Part shown: positions 1-23,939 of the stretch, in pieces
Numbering within the stretch: position 1 is the stretch's first letter
Layout: each line of letters starts with the position of its first letter
IMG/VR virus record: IMGVR_UViG_3300020129_000199
Location: 1-25,079 of that record
From: a virus
DNA length: 25,079 nt
Strand: one strand, 5' to 3'
The notes under the pieces: model-generated
What the model saw: the letters and a program-made list of their open reading frames with translations, nothing else
Told to the model about the DNA's origin: nothing
Databases searched by the model: none
Position numbers and translations under genes: made by a program

Positions 1-1
1 T

Positions 2-271
2 GCGACCGCAACCTGGAAGCCCGGCATGGACGTACTCGGCAATGACGTGCCGCGCGGCGCCGCGGTGGCCACGTTCGACGCAGCCGGCCGCTACGCCAAC
101 GCGACCGACGGATCCTCACACGCGGCGTTGTTCCTGCATCATCATCCGACCGGCGGTTTCGAGGCGATTGACCAATGGCTCGGCCACCCCGGCGCCCGCC
201 GCCACATCCGCGATAACAACGGGCGCGGGCCGGCGTGCGACGATGCCAGCCGGTTTCGCGTGATCGAATAG
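2..271 (+). CDS. BPSL0067-family peptidoglycan hydrolase, 3' part (5' end outside window)
   Basis: The frame is open from the first bases of the window, so this is the C-terminal part (about 89 residues) of a longer protein. The visible part reads ATWKPGMDVLGNDVPRG, then AVATFDAAGRYAN, then SSHAALFL, then IDQWLG, and ends FRVIE. This order (xGTAIATF, a xHAAxYL block with the conserved histidine, a xDQW block, and a terminal FSVIE-like end) matches what I remember of the BPSL0067 family, papain-like (NlpC/P60 or CHAP-like) proteins that act on peptidoglycan. In a phage the likely role is endolysin. The catalytic cysteine would lie upstream of the window and cannot be checked. The ATG at 26 is internal, because homologous residues precede it. 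The gene converges on the leftward block, with 2 bp between them. Confidence 0.72.
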   Translation, partial: ATATWKPGMDVLGNDVPRGAAVATFDAAGRYANATDGSSHAALFLHHHPTGGFEAIDQWLGHPGARRHIRDNNGRGPACDDASRFRVIE

Positions 272-273
272 CG

Positions 274-570
274 TCACCTAAGAAACCGTATGCCGGGGTC
301 GGTTCCAAGAATGTGTTTGAATTGACGATTGCCCGCCGCCCTTTGCAGCGGCGTTCCGCTGGCGTCGAACAGCCACACGTCCGAGATGCGCCAGCCCTTG
401 CGGTGCACGACATTGAGCAGAACCGCGTCGCTCTTGCCGACCAGCCACGCGAGGATCGGCGCGGTCCGTATGACCTTACCCGTTTCGTCCAGAATCAGCC
501 CGGCGACGAAATCGGGCCCCACGACCCGATACAGCATGGTTTCGCCGGTCTTTTTCCGGTCGCGACTCAA
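274..570 (-). CDS. Hypothetical phage protein, last gene of the leftward block
   Basis: A 98-residue ORF with no family I can name. It reads like a real soluble protein: LYRVVGPDFVAGLILDE, then APILAWLVGKS, then GWRISDVWLFDASG, suggesting a compact alpha/beta domain. Two starts are possible. TTG at 570 overlaps the stop of the upstream gene (TTGA), which would allow translational coupling. ATG at 537 gives 87 residues beginning MLYRVV, and codon-by-codon the conserved-looking part starts there. Neither has a strong Shine-Dalgarno sequence. It is the last of four tightly linked leftward genes (829-1053, 711-836, 567-707 and this one), so it is probably transcribed from the promoter at 1077-1105. 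It ends 2 bp from the convergent hydrolase gene. Confidence 0.6.
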   Translation of the reverse strand: MSRDRKKTGETMLYRVVGPDFVAGLILDETGKVIRTAPILAWLVGKSDAVLLNVVHRKGWRISDVWLFDASGTPLQRAAGNRQFKHILGTDPGIRFLR

Positions 571-707
571 GCGGGCCGCCGGCGCGCTTCCCAGCGGCGC
601 TTTTCCTCACGCTCGATGCGGCGCTGGCGCGACCAATTCACGATGCCGCCGACGCCGCAAACCGTCACCACGATTGCCAGCCAAACCATCACCAGAAATG
701 AAAGCAT
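567..707 (-). CDS. Small single-pass membrane protein (46 aa)
   Basis: A 46-residue protein with an N-terminal hydrophobic segment (LSFLVMVWLAIVVTVCGVGG, residues 2-21), then a strongly charged tail rich in Arg and Glu (NWSRQRRIEREEKRRWEARR). The expected topology is one transmembrane helix with a basic, probably cytoplasmic C-terminus. The start is ATG at 707, preceded by a good Shine-Dalgarno (GAGGGA) about 9 nt upstream. Its stop overlaps the possible TTG start of the next gene. It lies 3 bp after the other mini membrane gene (711-836). Size, topology and proximity to a cell-wall hydrolase would fit a holin, antiholin or spanin-like role, but no motif proves this. Confidence 0.6.
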   Translation of the reverse strand: MLSFLVMVWLAIVVTVCGVGGIVNWSRQRRIEREEKRRWEARRRPA

Positions 708-710
708 GGG

Positions 711-836
711 TCAGATCCCTCTGTTACCGTGCCACGACGCGCGCCGCGCGCGGTGCTGACAGATCCAATAAGTGAGCAACACCGGGCCCAGTAGCGGCAG
801 GAACACGGTGGCCAGAAAAGCGGAAAGGCTAGTCAT
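711..836 (-). CDS. Small single-pass membrane protein (41 aa)
   Basis: A 41-residue protein with a hydrophobic N-terminal half (SLSAFLATVFLPLLGPVLLT, residues 3-22), a short WIC stretch and a basic tail (QHRARRASWHGNRG). One membrane helix is predicted. Its ATG at 836 lies inside the last codons of the HTH gene (the two overlap by 8 nt), so translation is probably coupled; there is no clear Shine-Dalgarno of its own. The next membrane gene begins 3 nt after its stop. Two consecutive mini membrane genes of the same design suggest a pair working together, for example in lysis or membrane modulation, but this is inference from size and position only. Confidence 0.55.
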   Translation of the reverse strand: MTSLSAFLATVFLPLLGPVLLTYWICQHRARRASWHGNRGI

Positions 837-1053
837 GGTCTGGCGCCGGATGGCGTTTCAGCACGTCGCGAACCTCGCGCGCGATGGTTTCCATCCAGTC
901 CACCAGCCGCGGCGGTACGGTCCGCGCGGAGGCTTCGCTTTCGGTTTCATAGCGCCACACGGCGTCTTTCGACATGCCGAGATGCTGCGCCGTTGTCTGC
1001 CGTGTCCAGTGCAATGACTGGCGCGCGCGCAAGAATCGCTGCCGCAGTGTCAT
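829..1053 (-). CDS. XRE/Cro-type helix-turn-helix regulator
   Basis: A 74-residue protein. Residues 11-36 form a helix-turn-helix of the Cro/CI class: RQSLHWTRQTTAQHLGMSKD followed by AVWRYE, where QTTAQHLGMSKDAVWRYE lines up with the usual 'LA..LGvs..tv.rwE' recognition unit. The tail VPPRLVDWMETIAREV is typical of short phage and Rhodospirillales-type XRE proteins. The start is ATG at 1053 with an AAAGGGAA Shine-Dalgarno. It has its own consensus promoter (TTGACA at 1105-1100, 17-bp spacer, CTATTT at 1082-1077) bracketed by two inverted GCACGACAA sites, suggesting autoregulation. It overlaps the next gene, so regulator and small membrane proteins are co-expressed. Whether it is the repressor or a Cro-like switch protein cannot be told from the sequence. 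Confidence 0.75.
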   Translation of the reverse strand: MTLRQRFLRARQSLHWTRQTTAQHLGMSKDAVWRYETESEASARTVPPRLVDWMETIAREVRDVLKRHPAPDHD

Positions 1054-1065
1054 AATGTTCCCTTT

Positions 1066-1122
1066 CCTTGTCGTGCAAATAGTCGCCGCCCCGCGCCCTT
1101 GTCAACGGAAAGCACGACAAGG
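1066..1122. promoter_or_regulatory. Candidate operator pair bracketing the HTH promoter
   Basis: CCTTGTCGTGC at 1066-1076 and its exact inverse GCACGACAAGG at 1112-1122 flank the promoter: one covers the transcription start side, the other lies just upstream of the -35 box. The core GCACGACA also forms the palindrome at 2354-2377. A bound regulator would cover or loop this promoter. Binding by the protein encoded at 829-1053 is inferred. Confidence 0.6.
1077..1105 (-). promoter_or_regulatory. Sigma70-type promoter of the HTH regulator operon
   Basis: On the minus strand a perfect TTGACA (-35, positions 1105-1100) is followed after exactly 17 bp by CTATTT (-10, positions 1082-1077). The start codon of the HTH gene lies 24 nt further on. 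The stretch between the neighbouring genes (1054-1134) is only 81 bp and is filled by this promoter and its flanking repeats. Confidence 0.7.
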
Positions 1123-1134
1123 GCGCGGCCGCGA

Positions 1135-1734
1135 TCAATGGGCGCCGCCGCCGGTATAGCTGGGCCCGATTTTCACCCCGGCCACCGTGGCCGTGTTCCA
1201 TTTGCTGGCGTGGTAGTGGTGATCGACCTTAATCCGGCCGTCTTGGATCAGGACGCGCGTTTCCGGTCCGCAATAATCGCCCGACTGCGGCATGCAGCGA
1301 TGGCGCCAGTCATAGCCTAGATCCTGCTGGGCTTGGCGGATCTTGCGGACCGTCGCGTAGCGGCCGGCGATGGCCACGACCTCATAAAAGACATGGTGCG
1401 TTTCGTCATAGCCGTACGAATAGTGGAAAATATCGCCGACCTCGATTTCCGCCCGAAACGCCTCCGCCTTCGCCTTGCGTTCGGCCGCCCATGTCGCGCG
1501 CGTCCCGAGTGTCAGCTGGCGCCCGGCAAACAGTCGCGCAATGTCCGCTTCGAGGCGTGCCGCGTCGCGGTATAGCGTGTGCGAGTAGGGCCGCGCCTGC
1601 TTGCCGTAGAATACCGCCGCGCCACACTTGCCGGACTCGCAGTCATAGACATAGGCCACCGCGTCGGATTTCTTGTCGCAGACTTTGGTGGAGTTTTTCG
1701 GGATGTAAGATTCCCGCATGGGCTTGCGGTACAT
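1135..1734 (-). CDS. Conserved phage hypothetical protein (199 aa)
   Basis: A 199-residue soluble protein. The central part, VGDIFHYSYGYDETHHVFYE then VVAIAGRYATVRKI (about residues 97-132), resembles a motif I recall from phage and mobile-element proteins of unknown function ('vGdIf..sWGYdqTn.dFYqV'). The C-terminal part, HYHASKWNTATVAG, fits the end of the same family. The N-terminal part has cysteines (VCDKK, CESGKCGAA), and residues 80-95 are helical and charged. The start is ATG at 1734 with a strong GGGAGGC Shine-Dalgarno 6 nt upstream. That ATG overlaps the TAA (1736-1734) that ends the extended frame of the preceding gene. No biochemical role is known to me. Confidence 0.75.
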   Translation of the reverse strand: MYRKPMRESYIPKNSTKVCDKKSDAVAYVYDCESGKCGAAVFYGKQARPYSHTLYRDAARLEADIARLFAGRQLTLGTRATWAAERKAKAEAFRAEIEVGDIFHYSYGYDETHHVFYEVVAIAGRYATVRKIRQAQQDLGYDWRHRCMPQSGDYCGPETRVLIQDGRIKVDHHYHASKWNTATVAGVKIGPSYTGGGAH

Positions 1735-1814
1735 TATGCGGCCTCCCGGTATGCCGGCAGCCCATAGGCAACGCGCCGCTCCGCTTCATTGTAAAATGCC
1801 GGCTCCCACGCCTA
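1734..1814 (-). other. Coding continuation beyond the TAG stop
   Basis: After the TAG, the same frame gives AWEPAFYNEAERRVAYGLPA then YREAA and a TAA whose last base is the first base of the next gene's ATG (TAATG). There is no in-frame ATG, GTG or TTG after the TAG, so it cannot be a separate ordinary gene. The composition is protein-like, and the stop/start overlap matches the style of other junctions in this genome. Confidence 0.55.
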
Positions 1815-2066
1815 TTCCGCCGCATACTCTGGGCCCACCGGCAGCAATCCGTTCGGCCAGAACCGCGCGGCCGGCAGCCGCACGTCGCGCGGACTCTTGG
1901 ATGTACGGCCGAACACTTTGCACGCCACCCATGCGGCCGGCAGCCGCGCCAGCGCGGAGGCGCCGGGCACCAGATGCCAGTGCAACCCGTGCGCCTCGCA
2001 CGCGGCCAGCTTGGCCGCGCGGTTGGCTGCGGAAAAATCATCGTAATTCTTGAATGTCTTGCGCAT
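1812..2066 (-). CDS. Hypothetical protein, probably interrupted by an in-frame TAG
   Basis: An 84-residue ORF of no recognised family, starting at ATG 2066 with a Shine-Dalgarno AAGGAA 8 nt upstream. It begins MRKTFKNYDDFSAANRAAKL and includes WHLVPGASALARLPAAWVAC. It ends at a TAG (1814-1812), but the same frame remains open for 25 further codons that read as natural protein (see 1734-1814). The intact protein would be about 110 residues and end exactly at the start of the next gene. Either this is a nonsense mutation or sequencing error, or the stop is read through at some level. Confidence 0.6.
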   Translation of the reverse strand: MRKTFKNYDDFSAANRAAKLAACEAHGLHWHLVPGASALARLPAAWVACKVFGRTSKSPRDVRLPAARFWPNGLLPVGPEYAAE

Positions 2067-2078
2067 CGAAAGTGTTCC

Positions 2079-2306
2079 TTACAGGGTAATTTGAATGTCC
2101 ACGTCCCGATCGCGGAACGTGTCGTGGTAGCGTGCCAGCTTGTCGTTAATGCCCTCGCGCGCGTGTTCGGACTCGAACACTGCGAACGCATGGAACAGCA
2201 CGGTTGACAGCGCGCCATGGCGCAGCAGATGCGCGGTTGTTTGCAGCATCGTGCCGTCAATGATCACGCGGACGGTGGCCTTATCTGGAATGCGTTTAAC
2301 CTTCAT
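2079..2306 (-). CDS. Small hypothetical protein, first gene of the leftward block
   Basis: 75 residues, beginning MKVKRIPDKATVRVIIDG and including FHAFAVFESEHAREGINDKL; no family recognised. The frame is open back to a GTG at 2363 and an ATG at 2348. I prefer ATG 2306 because it has a purine-rich Shine-Dalgarno (GAGGGAAAGG) upstream, while the ATG at 2348 has none and directly abuts the TATTAT promoter-like box. The longer version would add MTAIANDGEGKAKA. It is transcribed away from the operator palindrome at 2354-2377 and is followed after 12 bp by the next leftward gene, so it is probably an early gene under the same control. Confidence 0.6.
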   Translation of the reverse strand: MKVKRIPDKATVRVIIDGTMLQTTAHLLRHGALSTVLFHAFAVFESEHAREGINDKLARYHDTFRDRDVDIQITL

Positions 2307-2347
2307 TGCCTTTGCCTTTCCCTCGCCGTCATTGGCGATGGCTGTCA

Positions 2348-2353
2348 TATAAT
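2348..2353. promoter_or_regulatory. Promoter -10 box next to the operator
   Basis: TATAAT is perfect on the plus strand at 2348-2353. The overlapping TATTAT reads on the minus strand at 2354-2349. No convincing -35 box is seen for either direction at 16-18 bp, so the direction is uncertain and activation by a regulator is possible. On the minus strand the palindrome would occupy the -35 region; on the plus strand it would cover the start point. Confidence 0.35.
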
Positions 2354-2377
2354 AGCACGACACCAGACTGTCGTGCT
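2354..2377. promoter_or_regulatory. Operator-like palindrome in the divergent control region
   Basis: AGCACGACA (2354-2362), a 6-bp spacer, then TGTCGTGCT (2369-2377): a perfect 9+9 inverted repeat. It lies between the leftward gene at 2079-2306 and the rightward genes starting at 2477. A related GACGACAA follows at 2382-2389. The same half-site brackets the HTH promoter at 1066-1122. This is a good candidate for the main early operator. Confidence 0.6.
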
Positions 2378-2476
2378 TTTAGACGACAATGCAGGCATGC
2401 AGAAACGGCAATGGTTGTCCCCGGCTTGTCGCATTATTATCCGACACATCGAAACCAGACGAACGGAACCGCACAC

Positions 2477-2782
2477 ATGCCAAAGCATACCGCCCGCTAC
2501 GCCGTCACTTTCGGATTGTCAGGCTGCTACATGCCGGACAGCCATGATGGCGCGTTTGAAGTCACGACCCGCCGCGAATTGGCCAGCCTGATCCGCGGCG
2601 AATTGGAAACCTATGACATGCCGGCATCCTTATTCCGCGAGGTGCGGATTGCGCGCTTGTGGCGCTTCATTAAGCGCCACGGATCCTCGAGTGCTCATTT
2701 CAGCTTGGTGCATGGCGGCAATGAGTTGGCGTTTCATGGCCTCACCGAACAGGAATACAACGAACAGATCGGGGAATGCTGA
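2477..2782 (+). CDS. Hypothetical phage protein (101 aa)
   Basis: The frame begins further upstream (2306), but that part crosses the control region. ATG 2477 gives 101 residues starting MPKHTARYAVTFGLSGCYMP and including RRELASLIRGELETYDMP and GGNELAFHGLTEQEYNEQIG. The pattern (a beta strand with an AVTFGLSGCYMPD motif, then two helices) is typical of small early phage proteins that modify or sense something, but I know no named family. The Shine-Dalgarno is weak. The next gene begins 1 bp after its stop, so the three rightward genes form one operon ending at the terminators near 3329-3460. Confidence 0.65.
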   Translation: MPKHTARYAVTFGLSGCYMPDSHDGAFEVTTRRELASLIRGELETYDMPASLFREVRIARLWRFIKRHGSSSAHFSLVHGGNELAFHGLTEQEYNEQIGEC

Positions 2783-2783
2783 A

Positions 2784-3086
2784 ATGACGACTGATAGCAA
2801 CGTGACGACGCTGCAAGCCGGCTCGCTGGCAATCTGGGATAGCCTCACCGCGGGACTGGTGCCCTGCCGCATCGTGAGCATTGACGGTTATCCTGGCCAC
2901 AAGTGTATCCTGCTGACGGTTACCGCCAAGCGCGGCAGCTATGAGCGTGGCCGGCTGGTGGACACCAACGCGTCGCGCGTCCTGCCACGCAACATCCGTC
3001 GCGTCCGCGGCAGCTATGGCCAGCGCATCATCATTCCGCCGCATCGGTTCCTTGTCACGCGCGGGGAGGGAGTCGGCGATGTATGA
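2784..3086 (+). CDS. Hypothetical phage protein (100 aa), possible small beta-barrel
   Basis: 100 residues starting MTTDSNVTTLQAGSLAIWDS. The middle, LVPCRIVSIDG, then CILLTVTAKRGSYERG, then VLPRNIRRV, alternates short beta strands with Lys/Arg-rich turns. This resembles an SH3 or KOW-like barrel; it is an impression, not a family match. The start is ATG 2784 with GGGGA 9-10 nt upstream. The C-terminus overlaps the start of the next gene by 8 nt, indicating coupled translation. Confidence 0.65.
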   Translation: MTTDSNVTTLQAGSLAIWDSLTAGLVPCRIVSIDGYPGHKCILLTVTAKRGSYERGRLVDTNASRVLPRNIRRVRGSYGQRIIIPPHRFLVTRGEGVGDV

Positions 3087-3294
3087 CCTCGCGCAACCGG
3101 CCGAGAAACCGGGACGCTGCCCGAAATGCCAGGGCAGCGGCCGCTATCAATGGGGCGGCACGGTGAACGGTAAGGCCGTCAAATCTGGCCCGTGCTTTTC
3201 CTGCCGCGGCAAGGGCGCGCAAGATCCGGCACAGATCGCGCGCAACGTCACATACAACCGGCACAAGATTGCCTGGATTGCCTCGCTGGCATAG
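3079..3294 (+). CDS. Small DnaJ-like zinc-ribbon protein (71 aa)
   Basis: 71 residues with two CxxCxGxG motifs: CPKCQGSG at about residues 14-21 and CFSCRGKG at about 39-46. This is the zinc-binding arrangement of DnaJ cysteine-rich domains and small phage zinc ribbons. It probably binds one zinc ion and contacts nucleic acid or another protein; no J-domain is present. The C-terminal part, ARNVTYNRHKIAWIASLA, is helical. ATG 3079 has a strong Shine-Dalgarno (GGGGAGGG) and overlaps the previous stop by 8 nt. It is the last gene before the tandem terminators. Confidence 0.72.
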   Translation: MYDLAQPAEKPGRCPKCQGSGRYQWGGTVNGKAVKSGPCFSCRGKGAQDPAQIARNVTYNRHKIAWIASLA

Positions 3295-3328
3295 GCTGGC
3301 AACGTATCGTCACCTAGAGCAAACCTAG

Positions 3329-3360
3329 GGCCCCGCTTCTCACCAGCGGGGCCTTTTCTT
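3329..3360 (+). terminator. Rho-independent terminator of the 2477-3294 operon
   Basis: GGCCCCGC (3329-3336), a 9-nt loop, GCGGGGCC (3346-3353), then TTTTCTTT. It has a perfect 8-bp GC stem followed by a T tract, 35 bp after the last gene. Confidence 0.88.
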
Positions 3361-3429
3361 TGGCGCTTGACGTGACCACGGGACGCCGCGGCATGCTGGC
3401 GCAACCTCACTTTGTCCACGTCCCAACTC

Positions 3430-3461
3430 AGCCCCGCTCCCCAGAGACGGGGCTTATTTTA
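3430..3461 (+). terminator. Second, tandem rho-independent terminator
   Basis: AGCCCCG (3430-3436), an 11-nt loop, CGGGGCT (3448-3454), then TATTTTAT. It lies about 75 bp after the first terminator, so read-through into the repeat region is doubly blocked. Confidence 0.7.
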
Positions 3462-3558
3462 TCGCTTGGCGCGACACCGCTGCGTATGCCAGCGTCATTC
3501 CCCGCGCCCGACGATGAAATAGCCTTCGATCTCACGGCGGCGTGATCGAACGAAATGT

Positions 3559-3675
3559 GGTAACAGAGCACTCAAATGTGGTAGCAGGATACGCAAATAC
3601 GGTAGCAGGATACCACATTTGAGTAACTAGATACCACAAAAAAGTAACGGGTTACCACACGCTGTACAGGCTACC
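3559..3675. repeat. Tandem 21-bp iterons
   Basis: Five units start at 3559, 3580, 3601, 3622 and 3643, exactly 21 bp apart (two helical turns), with a sixth degenerate unit at 3663. The left part of each unit is GGTAACAGAGCAC, GGTAGCAGGATAC, GGTAGCAGGATAC, AGTAACTAGATAC, AGTAACGGGTTAC. The core is GGTA-N6-TACC, itself a dyad, so each unit is probably a dimer site on the same DNA face. Another GGTAGC lies at 3680. Confidence 0.75.
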
Positions 3676-3707
3676 GGACGGTAGCAAAACAAGTTGCGAG
3701 CTCTAAG

Positions 3708-3801
3708 GCGTTGAAAAGGCCGGATTGCAACCATTGATACTGAGTATAGTGAGTAAGCTGCAACCCAGTAATTAACTCAGATTAAGCGTTGAAAAAGGCC
3801 G
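3708..3801 (+). repeat. Diverged direct repeat GCGTTGAAAAAGGCCG
   Basis: GCGTTGAAAAGGCCG (3708-3722) and GCGTTGAAAAAGGCCG (3786-3801), 78 bp apart. TGCAACC also recurs between them (3726 and 3760). The function is unknown. Confidence 0.5.
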
Positions 3802-3802
3802 T

Positions 3803-3904
3803 TTGAGTAAGGTGAGTAAGGTGAGTAAGGGAAATGCATACTATGCGTGCGCGCGCGTCGCATGCGAGGCTTATATCCGTGCTCACCTTACTCACCTTAC
3901 TCAA
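3803..3904. repeat. Perfect 23-bp inverted repeat built of 9-bp TGAGTAAGG units
   Basis: The left arm 3803-3825 and right arm 3882-3904 are perfect inverse complements separated by 56 bp. Three tandem TGAGTAAGG units (3804, 3813, 3822) face two CCTTACTCA units (3886, 3895). The loop contains a smaller dyad, ATGCG (3843-3847) and CGCAT (3859-3863), around an alternating purine-pyrimidine stretch GCGTGCGCGCGCG. Confidence 0.8.
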
Positions 3905-3934
3905 TTGCTATAAAGGAATAATAATATATATACT
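3905..3934 (+). promoter_or_regulatory. Candidate promoter for the late operon
   Basis: TTGCTA (3905-3910), an 18-bp spacer, then TATACT (3929-3934) inside the AT-rich tract. It is flanked on both sides by the inverted 9-bp repeats, which could hold a regulator. It would drive the TerS candidate and everything downstream. The -35 match is only moderate, and in such AT-rich sequence chance matches are likely. Confidence 0.35.
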
Positions 3935-3954
3935 TATCAAAGAGATAGGGAGGG

Positions 3955-4010
3955 GGTGAGTATATACATACGGTGAGTAAGACATCTTTCCTATATACTC
4001 ACCTTACTCA
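3955..4010. repeat. Second inverted repeat of the TGAGTA family in the TerS leader
   Basis: GGTGAGTATATA (3955-3966) is the inverse of TATATACTCACC (3992-4003). GGTGAGTAAG lies inside (3972-3981), and CCTTACTCA follows at 4002-4010, ending 23 bp before the TerS candidate ATG. An isolated GTGAGTAAG also sits at 3749-3757. Confidence 0.7.
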
Positions 4011-4033
4011 GAGACCACGGAAGCGTAACGGAA

Positions 4034-4636
4034 ATGAGCGACGAAAGCACAGGAACCGGCTCGAAAGGATCCGACCGTCCGGCCTCGCTGGCGCAGCTGG
4101 CCGCTGCCACCTTGCCGGCCGCAGCACAGATCGGCTGGCAGTTCGGCGCCGACGGTGGCGCGGCCGTTGTGGAGGCGCCGGCCGAACCGCCGAAACGCAT
4201 CGCGACGCGCGGCACCTTGCGGTCGGATGCGCGACGCGCCGCGGAATACCTCGCGAGCCGCGGCAAGACGCCGCTGGAATCGCTGCATGACGTGGCGCGG
4301 ATGCGCTGGCGCGTCGCGGTGCGCGTCATCGCCAAAGAATTGCAATGCTCCAAGCTGGAAGCATTCAAAATTTGGCAGTCGTGCGCGGTGTCGCTGCTGC
4401 CCTACTCGGCCGCGCGGTTCGACACGATTGAGCTCGGCGGCCAGCTGGCCGGATCCGCCGGCAGCCTGACGGTGGCACACTTCCTCGCCGCTTCGATGGT
4501 CGCGGAACGACTCGGCCAGCCCATGTCACCAGAGGGGCGATCATTTGACAGCACGATGACGACGCAATATCAGTTGCTTGCGGACGATGGGCAAGCGAGT
4601 GCCCAAAGCGGATTGCCACCGAAACCAGCGGACTAA
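4034..4636 (+). CDS. Probable terminase small subunit
   Basis: 200 residues, beginning MSDESTGTGSKGS. The N-terminal 60 residues are low complexity. About residues 66-145 form a helical domain: AAEYLASRGKTPLESLHDVA, RMRWRVAVRVIAKELQ, then SLLPYSAARFDTIELGGQLA. The 'TPLE ... M ... AA ... PY ... R/L' spacing recalls small terminases of alphaproteobacterial phages ('TPLEYML... AAPYxHPRL'). Such proteins recognise the packaging site and recruit TerL. It is the first gene of the rightward late operon and lies 1.3 kb upstream of TerL, which supports the call. The start is ATG 4034 with a weak GGA-rich leader. The family match is by eye and weak; a DNA-binding regulator is the alternative. Confidence 0.5.
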   Translation: MSDESTGTGSKGSDRPASLAQLAAATLPAAAQIGWQFGADGGAAVVEAPAEPPKRIATRGTLRSDARRAAEYLASRGKTPLESLHDVARMRWRVAVRVIAKELQCSKLEAFKIWQSCAVSLLPYSAARFDTIELGGQLAGSAGSLTVAHFLAASMVAERLGQPMSPEGRSFDSTMTTQYQLLADDGQASAQSGLPPKPAD

Positions 4637-4654: not shown

Positions 4655-5347
4655 ATGCCGGCAGACATTGCCACCAGCTGCGCCGCCCGATCGACCCCCC
4701 CCGGCCTCGAGGGACCCAGCCCCGTCATCGTCGCGGCCACCTACTGCAACCGCCCTCCGTCCCCGTTGGAGCGTCACAACAGCCACCCGGAACAGACGGG
4801 ACCACGGGAAGGGCAGGGGGTTGGCGGGGGATGCTGCGCGGTCTGCGCCAAGCCGCTCGGGCGCGGCAGCGATCGGATGCCGCTGAAACGCTACTGCTCC
4901 GCGTCCTGCCGCCTGGCCGCCGCAGCCGAGCGGGCTGGCCGCCGCTGCGAACAGTGCGGCGGCGCGCTGCATTCCCCGGTCAATCGGTTCTGCACCCAGA
5001 TTTGCGCCATCGCCTGGCGCCGTGGCGCCGGCTTCACCCTGTCCGACAAGCAACGCGCCCAGATCGCCAGCCTCTGGGCCGCGGGGCTGTCGCAGGTGAA
5101 AATCGCGCTCCGCGTCGGCGTCACCAAGCACGCCGTCGCCGGCTATCGCCGCCGCCACATGCCAGCCCGCGACAATCCCAAGGGCCAGAAGGCGCCGCCA
5201 CCAGCGACGCCCGCGAAGGCCGCACGGACGCGGCTGATCTGCCAGCCCGAAACCGCCGATCGCCGCCAGCCGGGGCGCTACTGCTCGGCCCATCCCGAAA
5301 TCCGCTTTCACCCGAAAGGCTGGTCATGCCGGGCGGCGGCGGCATGA
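4655..5347 (+). CDS. Zinc-finger protein with GcrA-like helix-turn-helix
   Basis: 230 residues. After a variable N-terminus come two treble-clef-like fingers: CAVC (61-64) with YCSASC (80-85), and CEQC (98-101) with FCTQIC (112-117). Then follows a helix-turn-helix, FTLSDKQRAQIASLWAAGLS (127-146) with VKIALRVGVTKHAVAGYRRR (148-167). It reads like the N-terminal DNA-binding unit of GcrA ('LW.eGLSa.qIA..LGgvtrnAVigk.hR'), a sigma70-associated cell-cycle regulator of alphaproteobacteria. A third Cys cluster (LICQPE, RYCSAHPE, WSC) closes the protein. A role in controlling late transcription or packaging-site binding is plausible. The start is ATG 4655 after GGAAGG; the C-terminus overlaps the HNH gene by 4 nt (ATGA). 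Confidence 0.65.
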   Translation: MPADIATSCAARSTPPGLEGPSPVIVAATYCNRPPSPLERHNSHPEQTGPREGQGVGGGCCAVCAKPLGRGSDRMPLKRYCSASCRLAAAAERAGRRCEQCGGALHSPVNRFCTQICAIAWRRGAGFTLSDKQRAQIASLWAAGLSQVKIALRVGVTKHAVAGYRRRHMPARDNPKGQKAPPPATPAKAARTRLICQPETADRRQPGRYCSAHPEIRFHPKGWSCRAAAA

Positions 5348-5952
5348 GGATCCGCGTCAAACCGATCGCCTGCGCTATCTGCGGCAAGGCGTTCGCTGGC
5401 CGGCATCATGCGGCGCGGTGCTGTTCGGAAGCATGCCGGCTCGCACTGCGCCGGCAAGTCTGGCCAAAGCGCCACCACCGGCAGCACACTTTGCTCGAGC
5501 GATTCTATGCTCTCGTGAGTCCCGAGCCAAATTCCGGCTGCTGGTTGTGGGAAGGCGCGGTGGACCGTCGCGGCTACGCCCGAATGAAGGCGGACGGACC
5601 TGGTGCGACCAGCGCGGCGCATGTGGCGCTGACCGAAATCTACGGCCAACCGCGTCCAGCGAGCGGCCATTACTGCTGTCATCGCTGCGACAATCCGTCC
5701 TGCGTTAATCCCGAACATCTCTATTGGGGCACGCCCGCGCAGAATGTCGCCGACATGAAGGCGCGCGGCCGCATGAAGTTGAACCCCGTGAAGGGAGAAG
5801 CCAGTCCTCACGCGAAGCTCACCGAAGCGGACGTGCTGACGATACGGGCATCCCAAGACCGCGGCAGCGCGCTCGCGCGCCGATTTGGCGTCTCGCATAG
5901 CCTGATCAGCCACATTCGCACCGGGCGTAACTGGAACTGGCTATCGTGTTAA
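5344..5952 (+). CDS. HNH endonuclease with N-terminal zinc finger
   Basis: 202 residues. A zinc finger, CAICGKAF (10-17) with CCSEACR (26-32), is of the same type as in the preceding gene. The nuclease core follows: EPNSGCWLWEGA (61-72), a strand-helix with AAHVAL (91-96), CCHRCDNPSCVNPEHLYWGT (111-130), and QNVADMKARGR (133-143). This is the 'H.C.n..CvNP.HL..Gt..eN..Dm...Gr' signature of phage HNH endonucleases. The C-terminus, LTEADVLTIRASQDRGSALA then RRFGVSHSLISHIRTGRNW, is a NUMOD-like DNA-binding helix-turn-helix of homing endonucleases. It may be a free-standing homing enzyme or assist packaging, as HNH proteins next to TerL often do. The start ATG overlaps the upstream stop (ATGA), and the gene overlaps TerL by 7 nt. 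Confidence 0.88.
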   Translation: MRIRVKPIACAICGKAFAGRHHAARCCSEACRLALRRQVWPKRHHRQHTLLERFYALVSPEPNSGCWLWEGAVDRRGYARMKADGPGATSAAHVALTEIYGQPRPASGHYCCHRCDNPSCVNPEHLYWGTPAQNVADMKARGRMKLNPVKGEASPHAKLTEADVLTIRASQDRGSALARRFGVSHSLISHIRTGRNWNWLSC

Positions 5953-7424
5953 CGCTCGGACCGACGTTCGATCAGCAGCGGGGCGCGGTTATCGCTGCGC
6001 TGCAAGCGCTCATTGCGTCGGGTGACGCGCCCTTTGCCTTCCTCGCCGATCGATTCGCAAATGCTCCGAATGGCTTCTGGCGCGAGATCCTTGGCATGGA
6101 GCCCGATGACTGGCAGCTGGCCGCCAACCGCGCGCTGGCGCACGGCCATAAGCGGCTGTCGATCCGCTCCGGCCACGGCGTCGGCAAATCCACCTGGGCG
6201 GCGGCATCGATGTGCTGGTTCGCCAATACCCGCGCCCCCTGCAAGATCGGCGTCACCGCGCCCAGCGCGCCGCAGCTGTATGACAGCCTCTGGGCGGAAA
6301 CCAAAGTCGTCTGGTCGCGACTGCCGCAGGCGTGGCGCGATCTGTGGGACGTGCAAGCCGATCGCATCGAACTCAAAGCCGCGCGCGACGAATGCTTCAT
6401 CACCGCCCGCACCGCGCGCGCTGACAAACCCGAAGCGCTGCAAGGTCTGCACAGTCGGCACTTGATGCTGCTGGTCGATGAAGCCTCGGGCGTCGATGAA
6501 GCGGTGTTCGAGTCAGCCGGCGGTTCGATGTCCACCGAGGGCGCGATTACCCTGCTGACCGGCAATCCGACCCGTTCCACCGGTTTCTTCTGGCGCACCC
6601 ACCACCTCGAGCGCGACCGCTGGTTCTGCATGCAGGTGTCGTGCAAAGACAGTCCGCGGGTGTCGCGCGCCTTCATCGAGGAAATCGCCAACCGCTACGG
6701 CGAAAACTCCAACGCCTTCCGCATTCGCTGCCTCGGGGATTTTCCAGTCGCCGAAGATGACGTGCTCATTCCGGCCGAGCTCGTGGAATCGGCGATGCAA
6801 CGCAACATCGAACCCGACTACGCGCATCCCGAAATTTGGGGCCTCGACGTGTCGCGCTTCGGCGCCGACCAGAGCGTGCTGGTCAAGCGGCGCGGGCCGT
6901 TCCTCACCGAACCGCCGCGCCGCTGGCAGGGCATCGACACCATGGCGCTCGCCGGCATCGTCAAGGCCGAATTTGACCAGCTGCAACCGGGCGCGCGCCC
7001 GCAGCTGATCGCGGTGGACGTGATCGGCATCGGCGCCGGCGTGGTCGATCGGCTGATGGAGCAGAACATCCCGGTGCTCGGGGTGAATGTCGCCGAACAG
7101 CCGTCGGTGACCGGGCGTTTCGCGCGGCTGCGCGATGAGCTCTGGTTTCGGGTGCGCGAATGGCTGGAAAGCCGCCGCGTGTCGCTGCCGTATGACGATC
7201 GGTTGCGCGCCGATCTGTGCGCGCCGCGCGTCGGGTATCTTTCCGATGGCCGTATGCAGGTGGAAAGCAAGGCGCAGATGCGCGCCCGCGGCTATGCCTC
7301 GCCGGACGTGGCCGACGCGTTGTGTCTCACCTTCTGCCCGTCGGGCATGGCGGTGGCGCTCGGGCTCGGCAATTTCCTCAATTCGCGCGCGCCGTTGCGC
7401 CGCCACATCGCAGGGACGGAGTAA
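5946..7424 (+). CDS. terL: Terminase large subunit (packaging ATPase and nuclease)
   Basis: 492 residues, the usual length. The protein pumps DNA into the prohead and cuts the concatemer. ATPase domain: Walker A SGHGVGKST (75-83), Walker B LMLLVDEAS (173-181) with D178-E179, and coupling motif TGN (205-207). Nuclease domain with RNase H-like acidic residues: GLDVSRFGADQ (D301), AVDVIGIGAGVVDRL (D358), and SPDVADALCL (D454/D457) near the C-terminus. The start is GTG at 5946, inside the last codons of the HNH gene, with MLTLGPTFDQQ as N-terminus. Conserved-looking residues (PNGFWREILGMEPDDWQ) follow well after it, so the exact start is not critical. All key residues seem present, so this copy should be active. 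Confidence 0.95.
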   Translation: MLTLGPTFDQQRGAVIAALQALIASGDAPFAFLADRFANAPNGFWREILGMEPDDWQLAANRALAHGHKRLSIRSGHGVGKSTWAAASMCWFANTRAPCKIGVTAPSAPQLYDSLWAETKVVWSRLPQAWRDLWDVQADRIELKAARDECFITARTARADKPEALQGLHSRHLMLLVDEASGVDEAVFESAGGSMSTEGAITLLTGNPTRSTGFFWRTHHLERDRWFCMQVSCKDSPRVSRAFIEEIANRYGENSNAFRIRCLGDFPVAEDDVLIPAELVESAMQRNIEPDYAHPEIWGLDVSRFGADQSVLVKRRGPFLTEPPRRWQGIDTMALAGIVKAEFDQLQPGARPQLIAVDVIGIGAGVVDRLMEQNIPVLGVNVAEQPSVTGRFARLRDELWFRVREWLESRRVSLPYDDRLRADLCAPRVGYLSDGRMQVESKAQMRARGYASPDVADALCLTFCPSGMAVALGLGNFLNSRAPLRRHIAGTE

Positions 7425-7430
7425 GGTATT

Positions 7431-8114
7431 TTGCCAGTAAATGTCCCGACTCAGGACGAATTTGCCACGCTCGAAAGCGACGTGATGGACCTCGATGCGC
7501 GGATTGCGCTGCTCGAGTCCCGCGTCACCGAACTGGAAAACGCCGCCACCACGCCGCCGCCAGAGCCGGGCCGCCCAGAGCATCCCATCGTCCTCCCGCC
7601 ATGGGAGCCCGAGCCGCCAGAGCCCGAGCCAGAGCCAGCTGGCGCCGTCACGGTGCACATGGGCGGCGTGGATTATCTCTACGATCCGGCGGCCGGGGCC
7701 GACATCGGCGACTACCACGACCCTGACGGGCGCTTTGTCATGTCGTGCATTCGTGTCACGCGCGACGATTGCCCGCTGCTGGTCGATTTCCGCGCGACCG
7801 ACGCTTGGCGCTGCGTCGTGTTCGAGCATTCGGATCCGCTGAATGGCAGCTGCCCGAACCTCGCCTATTCCGTCACCATCGAGGACATCGAGCACCAGGT
7901 GGCGGATCACTGGGGCAACGCCAGTTGGCGCTGGCAGTCCTGCCCGTGGCCGCATCCGCTGACGCCGCTTGAAACGCTCTATGAGCGCAAGCTATTGCCA
8001 AGGCACGACGGCGCGTTGGCATGCGGCAAGGCGAGCGGCCTGACCAACGTCGCGGCGCCCGTGCCGCCCATGAGCCTGTGCGGGTTCACCCCCGACATGC
8101 CAGGCACCGGCTGA
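7431..8114 (+). CDS. Large virion-type protein, N-terminal part (ends at an in-frame TGA)
   Basis: 227 residues. An N-terminal coiled coil (FATLESDVMDLDARIALLES then RVTELENA) is followed by a Pro/Glu linker (about 41-70) and a beta-rich domain with DYLYDPAAGADIG, SCIRVTRDDCPLLVDFRATD and SVTIEDIEHQVADHWGNASW. The start is TTG 7431 with TAAGG 6 nt upstream. The frame stops at TGA 8112-8114, but the sequence on both sides (GFTPDMPGTG, then RADIGVLTGWQGEYVC) reads as one continuous domain that carries on in the same frame to 9167. The combined product would be about 578 residues. The coil plus linker suggests a trimeric particle component; the exact role is unknown. Confidence 0.65.
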   Translation: MPVNVPTQDEFATLESDVMDLDARIALLESRVTELENAATTPPPEPGRPEHPIVLPPWEPEPPEPEPEPAGAVTVHMGGVDYLYDPAAGADIGDYHDPDGRFVMSCIRVTRDDCPLLVDFRATDAWRCVVFEHSDPLNGSCPNLAYSVTIEDIEHQVADHWGNASWRWQSCPWPHPLTPLETLYERKLLPRHDGALACGKASGLTNVAAPVPPMSLCGFTPDMPGTG

Positions 8115-8129
8115 CGCGCGGACATCGGT

Positions 8130-9167
8130 GTGCTGACCGGATGGCAGGGCGAATACGTCTGCACCGAGGGCGAGCAGATGCGCGCCACCGTGATCAATCA
8201 GGGCGAGGCTTCGTTCAACTGGCGTTACCGCGACCGCGAAACGGGTGCGATCTTCGACGCCATCAAGCAATACCCGAAAGCCAGCCTGCACTGGGGCAGT
8301 GGTCCGAGCGGCCAGCCGCAGGTCTACAACAGCACCGGATACAAGCCCGGCCTCGATACCGCCCATTCGCCAAGTTGCTACTATGTCCCGTTCTTGCTCA
8401 CCGGCGATCCCTACTTCCTGGAATATCACCAGGGCGCGCTGATGTACCACTTCATGGAGATACCGCGGAACCCGCAGACCGTTGTGGGCTCTGAGCAGGT
8501 GCGCGGCGTCGCGTGGTCGCTGCGTTATCTGCTCAACGCCGCAGACGCCACGCCTGACGAAGTGCCATCCTGGCTGTTGCCGAAATCGATCTTCGTGGAC
8601 GAATTGGAACGGCAGCGCACGTTGCTAGAGGCGCGGCAGTCCGATGGTTGGGTCTATCGCGACTGGTCGCACATCATCGACTCATTCGGACGCTGGCAAC
8701 ATGCGTGGTGGCAGCACGATTACGCTACGGCAATCGCCGCGTGGGCGTCGCTGCTTCACCCCGAATGGGCGCAGCAACGCGACTACATGGTGCAGGGCAT
8801 CGAGGGCAGGAACAGCGACACGTCCGGCTGGTGCCCTGGGTATCCGACCTCATACTGGACCAACACCACATCGAAAAATGACTGGTATCCCGAGGGCTCA
8901 TTCACCGACTGGGCCGCGGCGTGGGACTACAACGCCAATTACGTCTATACAGACACACCCGGCGGCGTCTGCCCGACCTTAGAGGCGACGCTAAGTAAGA
9001 ATACCACGTATGACTATTTTTACGCGATGATGCATGCATTGCGGCTCGCCAGCCAAGCCGGCTGCGCGCAGGCCGATGACGTGCTGGCGAAGCTGATTGC
9101 GCCGTGGGAAACCGGACTGAAACAGTACGGCTATACCGAATTTAAATACTGTGCAGCCTCGGAATGA
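8130..9167 (+). CDS. Large virion-type protein, C-terminal part downstream of the in-frame TGA
   Basis: 345 residues from GTG 8130, in the same frame as 7431-8114; only 5 codons separate the TGA from this GTG, and there is no Shine-Dalgarno, so it is more likely the second half of one gene than an independent one. Features include LDTAHSPSCYYVPFLLTGDP, YFLEYHQGALMYHF, VRGVAWSLRYLLNAADATPD and SFGRWQHAWWQHDYATAIAA. Regular helix pairs with aromatic residues and 'LTGDP.fLE' resemble an alpha/alpha-toroid (six-hairpin) fold, and related proteins occur in other phage genomes as I recall. A carbohydrate-active or receptor-related virion role is inference. It ends 20 nt after YCAASE-type codons of normal composition, just before a convergent small gene. 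Confidence 0.6.
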   Translation: MLTGWQGEYVCTEGEQMRATVINQGEASFNWRYRDRETGAIFDAIKQYPKASLHWGSGPSGQPQVYNSTGYKPGLDTAHSPSCYYVPFLLTGDPYFLEYHQGALMYHFMEIPRNPQTVVGSEQVRGVAWSLRYLLNAADATPDEVPSWLLPKSIFVDELERQRTLLEARQSDGWVYRDWSHIIDSFGRWQHAWWQHDYATAIAAWASLLHPEWAQQRDYMVQGIEGRNSDTSGWCPGYPTSYWTNTTSKNDWYPEGSFTDWAAAWDYNANYVYTDTPGGVCPTLEATLSKNTTYDYFYAMMHALRLASQAGCAQADDVLAKLIAPWETGLKQYGYTEFKYCAASE

Positions 9168-22848: not shown

Positions 22849-23077
22849 AATCCCACGCCACATGCCCATCGCTGTTACCCTCACCGCCGAGCAGTGGCAG
22901 GCCGTGATGCAGGTGCTGGGCGGCGGCCCCTATTCCGTGGTGGCGCCGCTGATCGGCCAGATACAGCAGCAGTGCATGCGCTACAGCGCGCCGCTTCCCG
23001 CGCACATGCCATTGCGGGTGCCAGGCGGCGCCAACGGCGAGGACCAACCCTGGACGGCGGATCGACCCGATGGCTGA
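22832..23077 (+). CDS. Small hypothetical tail-associated protein (81 aa)
   Basis: 81 residues: [49 protein letters not shown]. 'LT.eqWq.vl..L..gpy..vapLi..i..Q' resembles small phage proteins found next to fibre genes, maybe assembly helpers; unproven. Start ATG 22832 with GGGAG overlaps the fibre gene by 17 nt; the ATG at 22862 is an alternative. It overlaps the next gene by 8 nt. Confidence 0.65.
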
Positions 23078-23939
23078 TACTTACACGAGTAACTATCTGC
23101 TAACAAAACCGGAGGTTGGTGCCTCGCGCGATTCGTGGGGTGGGAAGGTTAATATCGATCTCGATACGATCGATACGATCTTAGCGGCGCTCATGCCGAT
23201 CGGCTGCATGGTGGACTTTACCGGCGCCTATGCACCCTCTGGCTGGCTCCTGGCCGACGGCTCGCTGCAATCGATCGCGACCTATCCCAAGCTGTTCGCC
23301 GTGCTCGGCGTCCGCTTCGGCGGCGACGGCACGACCAACTTCGCGCTGCCCGATACGCGCGCCCGCACGCTAATCGGCGCCGGGACGACCACCGACGAAT
23401 ATGGAACGTCGCTCACCTATACCCTTGCGCAGCGCGGCGGTTATGGGTGGATGACGATTGGCCAGCAAAATCTACCGAACTATGCGCTGTATGTCACCAC
23501 CGCGGGCGATCACGCGCATGTCGGCTGGACCGATTCACAGGGCGATCACACGCATTACGGCTGGACCGATACCCAGGGCAGCCACTATCACACGGTCTAT
23601 ACGCCCTACGGCTACGGCGGCGGCGGCGGTGCCGGTTCTTGGACCGCCACCGGTGTCGGCGGCTTCGGCGCCTATACCGACTATCAGGGCAGCCACACGC
23701 ACAACGTCGGGATGAATACCACGGGCGCGCATAGCCATAACGTCGGGATGACCACCACGGGCGGGCACGCCCATACCGTGATGCTGAATGGCGGTGTCGC
23801 CTATTTTGTCATCACCAACCCCTATCTGGCCACGACCAAAATCATCTTCGCCGGGCCGCCCGGCTTTACCGCGGCCTCGGGCGCCACCCCGAGCTCGCGC
23901 ACGGTGGTATCCTCGCCGTGGCGCGGTGGGCTGCACTGA
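23070..23939 (+). CDS. Tail collar fibre with metal-binding HxH repeats
   Basis: 289 residues. The N-terminal anchor [20 protein letters not shown] then [14 protein letters not shown] is shared in outline with the two fibres upstream. A phage tail-collar domain follows: [20 protein letters not shown] then [20 protein letters not shown] and [12 protein letters not shown] (about 52-103). Then six His-X-His motifs occur at residues 148, 160, 172, 209, 221 and 233 (HAH, HTH, HYH, HTH, HSH, HAH). Each triplet lies 12 residues apart, in a Gly/Thr-rich shaft. In short-tail-fibre proteins such as T4 gp12, HxH pairs from three chains hold iron along the trimer axis; a similar arrangement is likely here. 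Starts at ATG 23070; its stop overlaps the next start (TGATG). Confidence 0.85.

Follow-up and report, generated by a model that had tools for sequence, protein, structure and literature searches.

Genomic context

The window, that is, the whole stretch of DNA analysed here, is a complete linear IMG/VR contig of 25,079 bp that we judged from its gene content to be a phage fragment. It opens with early genes (1-3294), followed by the gene for the large terminase subunit (TerL, 5946-7424) and then by a portal gene with a homologue in Sinorhizobium phage phiM5. According to the ORF list, a non-coding gap of about 740 bases (3295-4033) separates the early genes from the terminase region, with a GC content of 0.50 versus about 0.65 in its flanks. 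Its left edge carries two terminator-like hairpins on the plus strand, an intrinsic one closing the upstream genes (3327-3355) and a second at 3436-3453. Inside the gap lies an array of sites spaced by 21 bp, over which the ORF list has no frame of 60 aa; stop codons occur in all three plus-strand frames across the array, which rules out a coding repeat.

All genes bordering the gap lie on the plus strand. Directly upstream, the product of ORF 3079-3294 is a small zinc-finger protein that weakly matches Q-like antiterminators (PHROG 6060, E 0.0017). On the other side, ORF 4034-4636 is kept beside TerL in related phages and would be a small terminase by position only: it has no match to small-terminase families and no profile match to the TerS of phiM5, and its AlphaFold model (mean pLDDT 51) is unusable. 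Profile matches identify the next two products as a zinc-finger/HTH protein that is HNH-like (4655-5347) and an HNH endonuclease (5344-5952). The match of 5946-7424 to PHROG 2 (E 1e-43), together with 70-79% identity to the proteins of four relatives, confirms by sequence similarity that this gene codes for TerL. The preliminary description of this DNA had taken 4034-4636 and 4655-5347 as the terminase genes, an assignment that we therefore do not retain.

An array of phased 20-bp sites

Five cores start at 3559, 3580, 3601, 3622 and 3643, a step of exactly 21 bp, as first described; the core GGTA-N6-TACC originally given for all of them is perfect at 3601 only, the other four having one or two mismatches. 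Autocorrelation over 3546-3665 peaks at 21 (0.64), 42 (0.53) and 63 (0.42). The best 105-nt segment of the gap scores 0.71, while 300 dinucleotide shuffles give 0.50 at most, and the five-unit lattice scores 35/40, against maxima of 25 in 1000 shuffles and 21 in the remainder of the window. The array is thus genuine and far above chance expectation.

An asymmetric site of 20 bp, TGTGGTAnCnnGnTACtcaA, describes the unit best, with iterons 1 (TGTGGTAACAGAGCACTCAA, 3556-3575) and 2 (TGTGGTAGCAGGATACGCAA, 3577-3596) in forward orientation on the plus strand, and iterons 3 (TGTGGTATCCTGCTACCGTA, 3598-3617, the most symmetrical of all units), 4 (TGTGGTATCTAGTTACTCAA, 3619-3638) and 5 (TGTGGTAACCCGTTACTTTT, 3640-3659) in reverse orientation on the minus strand. 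Mismatches to TGTGGTA in units 1 to 5 number 0, 0, 2, 3 and 4 in the left arms and 4, 3, 0, 0 and 0 in the right arms, the good half-site being the left one in units 1-2 and the right one in units 3-5. Because the better half-site switches side between units 2 and 3, the array would consist of two convergent sets on one lattice. Among all possible assignments of orientation, F F R R R is also the best, with a summed pairwise identity of 134 versus 122 when all units are direct, and convergent sets describe the array better than the earlier view of plain direct repeats with internal dyads. The array ends in a degenerate unit with a palindrome (3663-3685). Both the degenerate unit at 3663 and the half-site at 3680 that had been noted there are present, the former (TGTA-N5-TACC) standing one base off the lattice and the latter forming part of a perfect palindrome, GCTACC-GGAC-GGTAGC (3670-3685), at the end of that unit.

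A position weight matrix (PWM) of the array finds no site elsewhere in the window, the sixth-best match scoring 8.4 bits versus 22-25 for the array sites. A/T tracts can be read off the linkers at steps of about 21 bp, which suggests that the DNA of the array may be intrinsically bent. No homologous array was found in public phages or plasmids by blastn (E<=1), and a literature search retrieved no paper on 21-bp repeats combined with terminase and origin.

A second iteron family around an AT-rich tract

Besides the array, the gap contains shorter iterons of a second family, GGTGAGTAAG, whose inverted sets surround an AT-rich tract. These 9-bp iterons (GGTGAGTAA) span 3741-4010, 150-350 bp from the 21-bp array, and six of the seven copies of GGTGAGT in the 25-kb window fall in the gap. 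Outlying copies (TGAGTATAGTGAGTAAG) stand on the plus strand at 3741-3760. The first set (TTGAGTAAGGTGAGTAAGGTGAGTAAGG, 3803-3830, plus strand) is one arm of a 28-nt inverted repeat whose other arm, the inverted second set (3877-3904, minus strand), is 93% complementary to it at a distance of 46 nt; the 46-nt loop between the arms contains a run of GCGCGCGC. There follow the AT-rich tract, a candidate unwinding element (3905-3954, up to 70% AT), and a third set (3955-4010) with iterons on the plus strand at 3955 and 3972 and on the minus strand at 3997. As expected of an unwinding element, AT-rich DNA (about 3895-3955) adjoins the 9-bp iterons, at some 240-250 bp from the 21-bp array. Phased iterons near AT-rich DNA and upstream of what is now confirmed as the large terminase gene had already been reported for this locus, and this part of the preliminary description stands. 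Mainly because of the 9-bp iterons, we consider that the gap is probably a replication origin region.

A third family of repeats, GCGTTGAAAARGGCCG, has two plus-strand copies in the gap, at 3708-3727 (GCGTTGAAAAGGCCGGATTG) and 3786-3805, with a spacing of 78 bp.

The gap in related phages

The gap could be read in three relatives, L004, L017 and L022 (L020 is the same as L004, and L021 the same as L017); the contig of a further one, L018, is cut off on its left side. None of the three gaps contains a phased array of 16-26 bp, the gap itself being present in each. Relatives with TerL 77-79% identical thus lack the 21-bp array, which is not conserved together with the terminase. The preliminary description held that a 21-bp phase not conserved in related phages, along with the lack of a bound protein, would refute its proposal; the phase is indeed not kept where the gap is readable, which is half of that. 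In L017, the two best PWM matches of the contig fall in the gap, as happens with about 1% of permuted PWMs, and such a clear concentration in the gap was seen in this contig only among the five tried. Since p is about 0.01 per contig and five contigs were tried, these matches are no more than suggestive.

The layout of the 9-bp family fares differently. L022, whose TerL is 77% identical, has the same one built on another iteron, GGGTGTGACGG. Its 28-nt arms are perfect, the loop of 49 nt again contains GCGCGCGC, and AT-rich DNA and further iterons come next, followed by the homologue of ORF 4034-4636. L004 has scattered copies of GGTGAGGCGGC, and L017 has copies of CTACTGGTCAG. Judged from these comparisons, the 21-bp array is lineage-specific, while the origin-like layout that surrounds it is shared. 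Its absence from L004, L017 and L022 also makes the array dispensable for the conserved layout.

The window is a fragment without replication genes. L004, L017 and L022 all encode a P-loop protein of 631-632 aa that is similar to phage primase-helicases, and L004 additionally encodes a Toprim primase and an O-like HTH_36 protein, the latter absent from L022 and the other records searched. The zinc-finger protein of ORF 3079-3294 is 70% identical in L017, and its gene is also present in L022. Additional contig scans for further relatives returned none of use.

The first 240 bp of L018, upstream of its homologue of ORF 4034-4636, contain five GTAAC half-sites (0.3 expected), and GTAAC is the most enriched 5-mer there. 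We rejected this half-site as a common signal, as it is enriched in L018 and L004 and not in L017 or L022.

Comparable arrangements in other phages

The iteron GGTGAGTAAG occurs in a similar layout in two AT-rich contigs, L013 and L014; in L014, an unrelated phage, the iterons lie near TerL, and a DUF5906-type helicase is encoded in the genome. We also scanned IMG/VR for two phased GTARC-N3-WTAC units and obtained 24 matches versus about 20 expected by chance on a rough estimate, several of them in evidently homologous sequence. Only one contained a long comparable array, G006 (IMGVR_UViG_3300004241_000007), where inverted 9-bp AAGTTAATG iterons and an AT tract are followed by GTAAC-NN-GTTAC dyads spaced by 21 bp, immediately before TerS/TerL. 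Both this phage and the window therefore have 9-bp inverted iterons, an AT tract and 21-bp dyads before terminase genes. However, the two phages are unrelated, the two repeat families come in swapped order, and similar TGTAA repeats are also placed before several early genes of G006. G006 shows that the combination of the two repeat families recurs in phages, although it is a biased sample because it was retrieved by searching for the geometry of the array.

Two other contigs were set aside as not comparable. The match in L005 is a single copy attributable to chance, and L066 has a perfect 21-bp minisatellite, GTAACTCTATACGCTTTTCGA, which occurs in two places (2192-2270 and 3089-3190).

Possible functions of the array

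Of the origin, partition or packaging locus initially proposed, the first option has gained from the origin-like layout of the second repeat family, which is common to other phages, while packaging finds no support in phiM5. Our preferred reading, held tentatively and at somewhat less than an even chance, is that the array serves a composite phage replication origin in the gap as its accessory binding region of initiator type. A phage DNA-binding protein would bind all five sites from the same face of the helix and bend the DNA, aided by the A/T tracts that recur in the linkers at steps of about 21 bp. The 9-bp iterons would serve to load a primase-helicase pair of the kind encoded by the relatives (the Toprim primase and the 631-632 aa P-loop protein), which would then melt the AT-rich tract.

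An iteron origin should have a specific repeat in several helically phased copies, as the array does. Origins of iteron plasmids, for example pSC101 and R6K, have iterons of 21-22 bp arranged as direct repeats beside the Rep gene; the window array resembles them in its spacing of about 21 bp, or two helical turns, but it is not all direct and no Rep was found in the window. In lambda-type origins, the iterons are inverted repeats that the O protein binds and bends beside an AT-rich tract (PMC7466680), and the array is similar in having four to six phased sites with internal dyads near such a tract. However, lambdoid iterons lie inside the initiator gene, whereas the array is non-coding and outside any such gene, has two opposite orientations, and stands about 250 bp from the AT tract. 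In phage-inducible chromosomal islands (PICI), origins always have two sets of iterons flanking an AT-rich region and are located immediately 3' of rep (PMC6092414). The 9-bp family of the window matches this two-set layout of PICI/SaPI origins (3803-3830/3877-3904 and 3955-4010 around 3905-3954), but the window belongs to a full-size phage, has an extra 20-bp iteron array, and its gap adjoins the terminase genes; in L004 and L022, the 632-aa helicase gene ends about 4 kb before the gap. Further points against an origin function of the array are its absence from L004, L017 and L022, all of which have the gap, the lack of an initiator matched to it (the O-like HTH_36 protein being confined to L004 among the records searched), and the GC skew of the long relatives, which has no consistent extreme at the gap. 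The repeats of G006, since they precede several early genes, also fit a regulator better than an initiator.

This last observation leads to the strongest rival, a live alternative though a less probable one, namely that a late regulator (activator or repressor) of the rightward terminase and structural operon binds the array, with a late promoter within 3660-4030. As the two terminator-like hairpins close the upstream genes before the array, a late promoter would be needed in the gap, and there is a precedent in the late regulators Alt of TP901-1 and Ltr of phage Phi13, which use a group of four repeats shortly before the late promoter (PMC13123087). The window shares with them several repeats upstream of the terminase/late operon, but its repeats are 20-bp dyads in two orientations and no convincing late promoter was recognised, the search of the gap yielding one weak match only (at 3905; chance expectation 0.9). 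As a neighbour of the array with a weak Q-like match and conservation in L017, ORF 3079-3294 speaks for such a regulator; however, L022 has the gene but no array, so that the gene is unlikely to encode a dedicated partner. The multiple locations of the G006 repeats likewise favour regulation, but in the window the array sites are restricted to one place, and the early intergenic regions share another motif, GCACGACA.

An alternative that is also live, but decidedly less probable, takes the array for a recognition site in packaging, to which the small terminase or a DNA-binding protein associated with it would bind. The ORF in small-terminase position begins 350-480 bp downstream of the array, with TerL further downstream, the 21-bp dyads of G006 directly precede TerS, and the pac site of SPP1 contains direct repeats spanning the start of terS (PMC4737164). 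Besides this likeness to SPP1, there are differences. In phiM5 (L107, 7582-8006), a distant relative with TerL 48% identical, the start of the annotated 357-bp direct terminal repeat falls within terS, about 65 bp into the gene, and part of terS is repeated, so that the corresponding gap lies just outside the repeat and lends packaging no support. Moreover, the array is not conserved with TerL even at 77-79% identity, and ORF 4034-4636 matches neither small-terminase families nor, by profile, the TerS of phiM5. Plasmid partition systems are known to have centromeres made of short repeats in phased arrays, a precedent for a partition site of a plasmid-prophage; this reading of the array is scarcely credible here, as the ten window proteins scanned include no match to partition proteins and a gene of L004 reads, from its sequence, as a tyrosine integrase, which suggests integration over plasmid maintenance.

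Returning to the composite origin, a wider proposal would be that the two convergent iteron families (20-bp and 9-bp) act jointly, with one initiator/regulator coupling the start of replication to late transcription and packaging, and that this layout is a recurrent module beside the terminase in unrelated phages. We consider it highly doubtful. Should the preferred reading of the gap as an origin be right, PICI-like iteron origins would not be confined to satellites and would occur in full-size phages beside terminase genes, with close relatives differing in the iteron sequence but not in the layout. Such origins could then be found in uncultured phage contigs, which raises the testable question of how helicase and iterons co-evolve. 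The 21-bp array on its own would be one more lineage-specific protein-binding array.

Other repeats

In the window, the early intergenic regions 1068-1120 and 2355-2376 contain GCACGACA/TGTCGTGC sites, a motif unlike that of the array. These are probably operators of the small HTH protein encoded at 829-1053, a reading that leans on their position, since counts in the whole window (12 versus 8.5 expected) are near chance. In L022, TATCCG-N7-CGGATA-like dyads precede successive leftward genes (6330-8545) and look like multiple operators of one regulator. Finally, 36-bp tandem repeats (23504-23579 and 23694-23779) lie within ORF 23070-23939 of the window, which is probably a tail-fibre gene.
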